Below are positions 32,487 through 59,642 of a stretch of 64,000 bases of DNA, piece by piece. The translations under genes and the position numbers were made by a program. The notes under the pieces are model-generated. The model did not search any database and was not told where the DNA came from. It saw only the letters and a program-made list of their open reading frames with translations. Location: contig BLSF01000010.1 in NCBI GenBank assembly GCA_012862575.1, forward strand, positions 186,001 through 250,000. The letters are read 5' to 3'. Origin of the DNA: Parietichytrium sp. I65-24A (lineage: Eukaryota > Sar > Bigyra > Thraustochytrida > Thraustochytriidae). How positions within the stretch are numbered: the first letter of the stretch is position 1; each line of letters begins with the position of its first letter.

Positions 32487-34156
32487 TTAAGGTTTGTCCT
32501 GTCTGTGCTGGACGTGCAGCCTCATGCACACGTGAGCTGTGTTGAAATCAAATGGCCGCAGGCCAAATCCCGTGAAAACCGTTGTCCAGTCGTAGTCATC
32601 CGCAACTCGGACATCAAACCTTTGCAGAACGGTCGCGATCGCGGTAATTCCCTCGTACATGGCAAAGTTTCGCCCTGCGCAGTTTCGCGGCCCATCTGAA
32701 AATGGGATGAAGGACCCTCGAACGATCTTGTTCAAAAACCGATCTGGGTTGAACGTGGCTGGATCTTCCCAGTTCTTCGGGTCGCGATGAATGAAACAAG
32801 CCGGCATCCACACACGCGTAGCGCGAGGAATGATGATATTGTCCAATTGCACCTCCTTTGTGGTCTGACGTGAAACCAGCGATGCCGGAGGGCAAAGTCT
32901 CAAGGTCTCTAAGAAGACTCGCTCAGTGTACTTCAGGTCCTTGATGTCCTCCATGGTTGGGTGGCGGCCTTGCAAGACCGTGTCGATCTCTTGCGTAACC
33001 TTCTCGGCGACCTCTGGATGAAGCGCCAAAAAATACAAAGCGTGGCAGGTAGTCGGCACGGCGGTATTGAAGCCTGCGAACAATATTTCCACGAGATTGT
33101 CGCCAAGCTCTGCAGTCAAGAGCTCTACGTTTCCGTCTGCTTCTGGGTACTGCTCGACGTAGACGTCGATCATCTTCTGGAGAAGGTCTCCGCGCGGCTT
33201 GACGCCATTTTGAAGATCAATAAGACGCTTTTCGATGACTTTGCGAATGACGTCTCTAGCTTGCCAAGATTTCTCAGCCATAGCTCGATTGTCTGGTGTG
33301 TCACTTGTGAAATCGTTTTGGGTCTCAAAATCAGGAGCATATGCTCGGCGCGGCAGCTCCTCCAAAAGGTATTCAAATGAGTCTTCGATTTCGCCTGGCC
33401 CATCCTCGAAGGCCTTGATGTAGCCCAGGTCATAGTTGAAAGCCACCCTGCCCATTCCATCGAGGTGGTACACGCCAATTGCTCGCATAAAGTCGAGGTC
33501 CTCTCCGCTCTCGGCGTGCTTGTCCAGAATGCGCACGAGGCCGTCCGCGGCAACCTGCATATCACTCGACATCAGCTTGACATTATGCTTTTGGAAGCTT
33601 TTCTTCAGGACATTGCGGAGGTCCAGCCACTCTTTCCCCTCCAAGATGAAAAGAACCTTGTGTCCAAAGAATGCCGCACTGGGGGGGCGCAGTCCTGCAA
33701 GAAAGTGTTGCTATAAAATGGCAAAGTTCGTTCGGAGCAAGTAAGAACATTTGTCCGCTCTTGTCAGACACGCAATTTCCAAAACAAAGGCTGCCTCAAA
33801 ACTCTTGGACTTACCACTGACGATGTAAGGATCTTTCTCACAAAGGCTGGCTGAGTGACCATGAGCACGTGGCCCGACTCGATCGTGTCCACGTACCCAA
33901 GCCCAGTCTCAGGATTCACCCTCGAGGCCATCATATTGAGGCCAGCCACGTAGTCCTCGCTGAGGTCCACATCGCTGCCAACCAGGGGGATCTCCTCAAT
34001 ACCGTCCAAATCCACAAAGTCCATCTCGATGGCGTACGCATCTTCCGCAGCAGACCCTCCCACCGCCACAGCAGTCTCTTCCGACCCTTCCGTGGCGCCA
34101 ATTGCCGCACAAGGTTCGGCGCGCAAGTGCTGCGAAACCTTCCGAACGCGCTCCAT
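32487..34156 (-). CDS. Cytochrome P450, two exons
   Basis: A heme-thiolate monooxygenase; family number and substrate unknown. Exon 1 is 33815-34156 and exon 2 is 32487-33710, for 521 residues. The 104-bp intron has a GTAAGT donor. Only the TATAG acceptor at 33711 keeps the frame, giving SSVQHFLAGLRPPSAAFFG. A stronger-looking CTTGCAG 16 nt downstream would shift it. Motifs: I-helix LFAGFNTAVPTT (Asn329, Thr330), K-helix ETLR, FNPDRF, and the heme loop FSDGPRNCAGRNFA with Cys458 as the iron ligand. The I-helix acid is Asn rather than the usual Asp or Glu. There is no hydrophobic N-terminal anchor: the PLVG start of the catalytic domain comes at about residue 57 after an acidic, Ala-rich stretch. 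The protein may be soluble or need an unseen 5' exon. Confidence 0.92.
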
Positions 34157-58527: not shown

Positions 58528-59642
58528 ATGTTGTCTTCGTCGCGGAAGAGCCTGGCAAGGCTGGTCGTCTCGGAGCGCCACGCGTACAGGTGCAAGTACA
58601 GGTACACATACAGATACCGAAACGCACACAGACACAGGTGCCTGAGCGACGCGGCCTCGAGCCGTGGGGCTGGAGACACCAGCCTGGAGGTGCAGAACGG
58701 TGTGGCGCTGCTCAAGCTGAATAGACCGTCGCGGATGAATGCGCTGAGCACAGACATGGGCGAACGCATCAAGTCGCTTGCGGGAGAGCTGCGAGAAATG
58801 GACGCCAGAGCGCTGGTGGTGTTCGGGTCCGGCGAAAAGGCGTTCAGCACGGGAAGGGATTTGAAGGACAGTAAAAATCATGATGCGGAGGCTGCTGCCG
58901 CTTATATGCGCCTTGCCAGAGATTCTGTCTTGGCCATGCGCGCATTGCCCATTCCAACTGTGGCTGCGGTGAACGGGTTTGCGTTTGGGTGGGGCATGGA
59001 GCTGGCTCTGGCGTGCGACTTGAGAGTGATGGCACGTGAAGCCGTCTTGTGCTTCCCAGAAACCGGATTGGGAATGTAAGTTCCAGCTTGTGTTGGTTTG
59101 TGGCAAAAAGACCGATGGACGAGAGCTCACTTTCAGGTAATGATTTGATTGTCTTCTCGCTTCATTGGCAAACCATAGTTTCCGTAAGTATTTTGATGGA
59201 TTGGATGGATGCCTTTTCTGTGGATCCGCTGCTTAACTAACTCGGAGACTTGCTTGTGTTTTTTCTCCTTTCTGCAGCTGGAGCGATGGGAACAGTTCTC
59301 CTGCCTAGAATCGTCGGGCCCGCAGTAGCCAAGGACTTGATCTTCACCAGCCGGCGCTTTTCGGGAGGTGAGGCCAAGGAGCTAGGTGTAGCGAACCGGG
59401 TTGCCGACACCAATGTCGAATGTGTGGAGATGGGCATCGATCTCGCACTTCAGATTGCTAAAAACGCCCCGCTAGGTTTAAAAGGCGCAAAGTGCGTCAT
59501 TGACGAAGGATTGGATCTCGACTTTAACGCTCACTGTGCTTTGTCCGACAAACACCGCTTCCCGCTCAACGATACGGAAGATTTCAAGGAAGCCCTCCAA
59601 GCATTCGCCGAGGGCAGAAAGCCAAAGTTTGTTGGCCGCTGA
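58528..59642 (+). CDS. Mitochondrial enoyl-CoA hydratase/isomerase (crotonase family), three exons with a 5-nt microexon
   Basis: Hydrates enoyl-CoA in beta-oxidation or amino-acid breakdown. Exons: 58528-59075, 59179-59183 (five bases, TTTCC) and 59278-59642, total 305 residues. Introns of 103 and 94 bp have GTAAGT donors and TAG/CAG acceptors. Without the microexon the two long exons are out of frame. With it the junction reads ETGLGIFPGAMGTVLLPR, the crotonase active-site loop. The N-terminus (about 1-45) is basic and rich in Arg/Tyr/His, with a YRYTYRYR stretch encoded by a short DNA repeat, and fits a mitochondrial presequence. The oxyanion segment is GEKAFSTGRDLKD. Catalytic Glu candidates are in GMELALACD and FPETGLG. 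The C-terminus AFAEGRKPKFVGR is typical. Substrate range (ECH, AUH-like) is undecided. Confidence 0.93.

Follow-up and report, generated by a model that had tools for sequence, protein, structure and literature searches.

A putative five-nucleotide exon in the active-site loop of a crotonase gene

A crotonase gene with two predicted, closely spaced introns

Within the 64,000-nucleotide stretch of DNA analysed here (the window), a gene of the crotonase family is interrupted by a 202-nt interval that appears to hold two introns separated by five coding bases. Splicing is inferred from the sequence. The predicted features are:

58528–59642, plus strand: crotonase gene, whole coding region in three exons
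58528–59075, plus strand: exon 1, coding part; putative start at the first ATG in the open frame; ends ...GGATTGGGAAT
59076–59178, plus strand: intron 1, 103 nt, GTAAGT...CATAG
59179–59183, plus strand: candidate microexon TTTCC, 5 nt; AT+T TTC C+CT = Ile-Phe-Pro
59184–59277, plus strand: intron 2, 94 nt, GTAAGT...TTTCTGCAG, acceptor CTGCAG
59278–59642, plus strand: exon 3, CT GGA GCG ATG GGA ... to the TGA stop

A preliminary description of this DNA held that the two long exons are incompatible in frame if joined directly, that ATAG/TTTCC/GTAAGT lies between them, and that including TTTCC yields the peptide GLGIFPGAMGT. All three points hold up. Exon 1 ends GGA TTG GGA AT at 59075, two bases into an Ile codon, and joining 59075 straight to 59278 brings a stop after 10 codons; if intron 1 is retained, the read-through meets TAA immediately. 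The five bases lie at exactly the coordinates described, and when we enumerated internal exons of the form AG-N(0–119)-GT/GC that leave at least 30 nt on each side, TTTCC was the sole 5-nt candidate in the interval. The predicted peptide is supported by the frame, the splice signals, this uniqueness, the Pfam score and a gapless loop. Two marks of an ultra-short coding microexon (1–15 nt) are found here: a canonical acceptor and donor (CATAG/TTTCC/GTAAGT, 59174–59189), and necessity for the frame or a conserved motif, as seen in the direct-join stop and the loop alignment.

With TTTCC included, the product has 305 residues, about 50 of them N-terminal to the crotonase domain. Residues 55–304 match Pfam ECH_1 (PF00378) over profile positions 2–250 of 251 at 165.5 bits, exceeding the curated cut-off of 27 over the whole domain. 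The name enoyl-CoA hydratase, given earlier, stands at the level of the crotonase family and not at that of a named equivalog: the best such match scores 204.9 bits where the cut-off is 363 (NF005802), and none of the best 25 of 72 NCBIfam matches attains its own cut-off.

In the alignments the five bases fall in a loop whose length is mostly kept. The product matched 217 solved sequences, best among them 3kqf and 5jbw, with the AUH entry 1hzd matching too; none of the three printed alignments (3kqf, 5jbw and 5jbx) has an indel across the loop. GMELALACD and PETGLG of exon 1 align with GTELSLACD and TETTLA of 3kqf, an alignment in which the two conserved glutamates of the hydratase subgroup are present. 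These crotonase-type glutamates, both in exon 1 (GMELAL, PETGLG), we take to be the catalytic pair. Loop length is kept in 46 of 48 aligned relatives (40 bacterial loci and eight paralogues in the same genome), with the bacterial rows not independent of one another, 38 of the 40 being identical across the 20 residues shown; the exceptions are L064, which has a one-residue deletion, and L008, whose row is in the wrong frame. The eight best-scoring PF00378 matches in the genome contain no internal stop, two of them covering just 202–216 of 251 positions. The search for relatives found no related eukaryote with the gene; the 40 loci are bacterial by their titles, and a single viral-contig locus matches residues 87–159 only.

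We hold with high confidence that this is a crotonase gene with two GT-AG spliceosomal introns separated by five bases, in which TTTCC would supply pieces of the Ile-Phe-Pro codons in the loop after the second glutamate. This structure is favoured because both donors are GTAAGT, as are 28 of 39 donors in our intron sample, because the intron lengths of 103 and 94 nt lie near the sample median of 96, and because exons of the same kind appear in two other genes, L015 (11 nt) and L070 (3 nt). The poor branch and pyrimidine context of intron 1 counts against it.

The interval offers one competing internal exon, 59126–59136 (CTCACTTTCAG, donor GTAATG), which would give GLGISLSAGAMGT. Its length fits modulo 3, it brings no stop, and the crotonase match remains good, yet the ECH_1 score falls to 155.1 bits from the 165.5 reached with TTTCC. 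Moreover, the loop gains two residues and loses its proline, the acceptor context is purine-rich (GACGAGAG), and GTAATG is the donor of none of the 39 hand-called introns. We judge the use of this exon very improbable.

Two further features of the interval were considered. TTTCAG/GTAATG (window 59131–59142, donor at 59137) is a possible zero-length recursive splice site within intron 1; it could serve as such but is superfluous to the structure. An introner-like origin was rejected, the 202-nt interval having matched itself alone in the genome in a search that skips very common words.

Chance occurrence of the five-base exon

The splice signals and peptide of TTTCC seldom coincide by chance. 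When the 202-nt interval was shuffled 20,000 times with its dinucleotides preserved, AG-N5-GT of any kind arose in 6,799 shuffles, and with an I/L/M/V-x-P peptide and any donor in 990. Adding a strong donor (GTRAGT or GTACGT, a set picked after this genome's donors were seen) reduced the count to 58, and strong donor and peptide together to 11. A second run of 20,000 with the stricter peptide I-x-P gave 6,895 for any AG-N5-GT, 72 with the donor, 810 with the peptide and five with both. AG-N5-GT by itself, or with the peptide only, is unremarkable; its combination with a GTAAGT donor is remarkable.

These counts bear on whether the gene is instead broken, as a pseudogene or through an assembly error, with the microexon a chance match in one 202-nt intron. 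The ease with which AG-N5-GT arises, alone or with a fitting peptide beside any donor, would allow such a match, but the 11 shuffles that also carry a strong donor argue against it. Each long exon keeps an open frame and matches the family up to its end, the interval divides into two introns of normal length, and independent microexon cases occur elsewhere in the genome. A broken gene has, in our estimate, a very slim chance of being correct.

We also scanned both strands of the window for AG-N(1–15)-GT flanked on either side by a strong donor (33 on the plus strand, 43 on the minus), limiting introns to 60–200 nt with long open frames on either side. Three distinct candidates emerged: TTTCC, one in a 3,502-codon open reading frame and one in a P450 gene. 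The second lies where the reading frame is intact, and for the third an ordinary intron accounts for the gap. The cytochrome P450 gene (window 32490–34000, minus strand) reads by eye as having an ordinary intron, whose donor lies near 33814 and whose removal links ...KILTSSV to QHFLAGLRPPS.

Introns of the host genome

The host genome (42.5 Mb in 172 contigs, with G+C of about 50–54% in the window) looks intron-poor. For kinesin, 53 of 71 motor matches span profile positions 36–314, and most listed PF00378, PF00501 and PF00270 matches cover most of the profile within one open frame; candidates were scored best first (14 of 45 for PF00501, 37 of 76 for PF00270), which biases this view toward uninterrupted genes. 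One open frame of 4,460 codons with three AMP-binding domains (G000:C7:20561–29278) may encode a non-ribosomal peptide synthetase. The profile search of the genome gave no match to PF07977 (FabA-family), a result that does not in itself establish absence.

Intron properties come from a hand-read sample, not a census, of 36 gaps and 39 introns in split genes of PF00378, PF00071, PF00118, PF00227, PF00225 and PF00270. Junctions were called by eye against known family motifs, and the three microexon genes were checked against solved structures. Outside the sample stand matches with internal stops (for example PF00501 on C49, C85 and C35, TCP-1 on C55, kinesin on C86, and Ras on C22 and C11), splits in one open frame (for example kinesin on C12, C53 and C56, proteasome on C8 and C17, and Ras on C113 and C133), the split Ras gene on C10 in the window, the P450 intron, and L011 (one open frame), L084 and L085.

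Two kinesin genes call for comment. L072 was left uncounted as unresolvable by eye: it splits after GKTFTM (G000:C3:724880–725160) with seven profile positions unmatched at the junction, which may hold a short exon. L073, whose second intron has no assigned acceptor, contains a 29-nt exon (G000:C77:77499–77527, locus 140–168) in the motor domain, directly following GAGKTY; this exon is short without being ultra-short.

The 39 introns, including both from the window gene, range from 65 to 351 nt. Apart from the 28 GTAAGT donors there are four each of GTGAGT and GTACGT and three others once each, and the acceptors are CAG (27) or TAG (12). In 15 of 35 cases the donor is preceded by an exonic G, which suggests that splice information is mostly intronic. 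Such an arrangement would cost a tiny exon little.

Candidate ultra-short exons elsewhere in the genome

Exons of at most 15 nt were found in three of the 36 hand-read gaps, or two of 35 once the given case in the window is set aside; the families were not selected for microexons, and the sample is small, hand-read and incomplete. The two further candidates are:

G000:C5:86294–86304 (locus 795–805): 11-nt exon GGCTGATTCCG of L015, a crotonase paralogue; flanking introns of 159 and 100 nt
G000:C68:43534–43536 (locus 1035–1037): 3-nt exon TGT (Cys) of L070, CCT-epsilon; flanking introns of 127 and 87 nt

The spliced L015 protein, which may resemble ECHDC1, reads TKLGLIPGWGGGSRL, and its frame is lost without the 11-nt exon. 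Its loop is gapless in the three printed alignments (3kqf, 5z7r and 5jbw). Shuffling recovered donor and peptide together in none of 20,000 trials, and the peptide alone in 24.

For L070, inclusion of TGT aligns residues 2–530 with 6–534 of the CCT-epsilon chain 5uyz without an indel, and TGT supplies the cysteine of NLVICQWGF (NLAICQWGF in 5uyz). Without TGT the protein is one residue short and its frame is intact, so the case hinges on the cysteine match. AG-N3-GT with a strong donor and a Cys codon arose in five of 20,000 shuffles; with the Cys codon and any donor, in 626.

The two crotonase microexons split the same loop. Its codons read TTG GGA AT/T TTC C/CT GGA in the window gene and TTG G/GG CTG ATT CCG/GGT in L015, so that the two microexons are offset by 4 nt at their left edges and by 2 nt at their right. 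By eye, the two genes are distant paralogues; in L013, a further paralogue, an ordinary intron interrupts this loop a few codons downstream. The paired microexons could reflect either sliding of old introns or separate gain.

Proposed order of intron removal

How might a spliceosome handle an exon of five bases? We suggest that TTTCC is constitutive and too small to accommodate acceptor and donor complexes together, in which case the two introns would be removed in turn. Each, at about 100 nt, could be recognised across its own short length, that is, by intron definition. Intron 2, on the strength of its better branch motif and pyrimidine tract, would probably go first. Its removal would join TTTCC to the long exon, after which intron 1 would be spliced through its own weaker acceptor.

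Branch motifs weakly point to such an order. Intron 2 has a CTRAY branch-like motif 38 nt before its acceptor, whereas intron 1 has none 12–70 nt from the acceptor, only the looser YTNAY at 50, 31 and 15; the pyrimidine content of the tract is 88% in intron 2 and 53% in intron 1. The same pattern recurs in all three microexon genes, with CTRAY missing upstream and present downstream, which is what suggests downstream-first removal. Specifically, the motif occurs 12–70 nt before the acceptor in 26 of 33 ordinary introns, in none of the three introns upstream of a microexon and in all three downstream. A random draw of three from the 36 ordinary and upstream introns would lack CTRAY entirely in 120 of 7140 cases (about 0.017). 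This comparison is post hoc, with three microexons as its basis, and it weakens when the looser YTNAY is used (33 of 33 ordinary, two of three upstream, three of three downstream). Mean pyrimidine content before the acceptor, at 0.59 for ordinary, 0.61 for upstream and 0.63 for downstream introns, does not support the order overall, and in L015 and L070 the poorer tract is the downstream one.

The weak branch context of intron 1 also bears on whether TTTCC is optional. Skipping would produce a frameshifted mRNA and could lower expression through nonsense-mediated decay, a use compatible with the two-intron structure. Skipping and retention of intron 1 each give an early stop, and intron 1 lacks CTRAY, as optional use might predict. 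Early stops are, however, expected of any frame-breaking exon, and regulated use is without support; we think it unlikely.

Relation to known microexon systems

Ultra-short coding exons are well documented in plants. A study of land plants and green algae (Yu et al. 2022, PMC8831610) reported 2,398 microexons of 1–15 nt from ten plant species, 105–454 per species and in 0.6–2.6% of expressed genes. Many of these are unannotated and they often lie within conserved motifs, and 1-nt exons in APC11 and VPS55 were confirmed by RNA-seq and sequencing of RT-PCR products (PMC8831610). Set beside these, and beside the apparent 3-nt exon in the genome studied here, the preliminary description's view of five bases as the lower limit of spliceosomes was too strong. 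The literature searched, which left most subscription-journal papers outside, yielded no paper joining microexons with enoyl-CoA hydratase. Likewise, no protist survey of ultra-short exons was evident from the titles and the starts of abstracts on microexons and protists; in Creolimax, exons of 3–15 nt have been searched for (PMC4739763).

Gene finders readily overlook exons of this size, and annotated proteins of this genome could consequently carry false frameshifts or lack active-site residues. Should the density seen in the sample extend to the whole genome, the organism would offer a simple system for studying how spliceosomes handle exons too small for both splice-site complexes, free of animal neural regulators. 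A broader proposal, which we regard as possible but doubtful, is that constitutive exons of 3–11 nt occur here at a per-intron density well above that of plants and animals, enabled by almost wholly intronic donors (GTAAGT) and by a fixed downstream-first order set by weak upstream branch sites, and that two distant crotonase paralogues acquired their differently bounded microexons in the same loop either independently or through intron sliding.

Among crotonases (PF00378), which the window gene's product matches at full length, the gene would stand apart through a loop interrupted by two introns with five bases between them. Its candidate microexon resembles those of plants, which are also ultra-short, inside conserved motifs, often essential for the frame and bounded by GT-AG sites, with lengths down to 1 nt and GTRAGT donors at the VPS55 1-nt exon (PMC8831610). 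They differ in being known from RNA-seq, those of the host genome coming from sequence alone, and neither crotonases nor CCT figure among the top motifs listed in section 8 of that source. With three of 36 sampled gaps holding such an exon in a host that looks intron-poor, the density per intron may be high.

Animal microexons offer a parallel for the order of removal. The majority of SRRM4-dependent microexons are reported to follow a downstream-first order (58% strongly so), and weak upstream acceptors and a steric argument have been invoked (PMC10250204); in C. elegans, shorter flanking introns relieve the dependence of microexons on PRP-40 (PMC8378409). TTTCC would share with the SRRM4 class the weak upstream acceptor and the proposed steric conflict solved by removing the downstream intron first (PMC10250204). 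Unlike TTTCC, which is 5 nt long and frame-essential, SRRM4 neural microexons are regulated and by definition measure up to 51 nt, the downstream-first ones having a median of 17 nt (PMC10250204), and in humans about 80% of microexons have a length divisible by 3 (PMC8831610). Nor does the last 40 nt of intron 1 contain TGC, the DNA form of the UGC found near upstream acceptors in the SRRM4 type. Ultra-short coding exons are an established class, to which TTTCC would add a crotonase case in a genome whose density of such exons per intron may be unusual.
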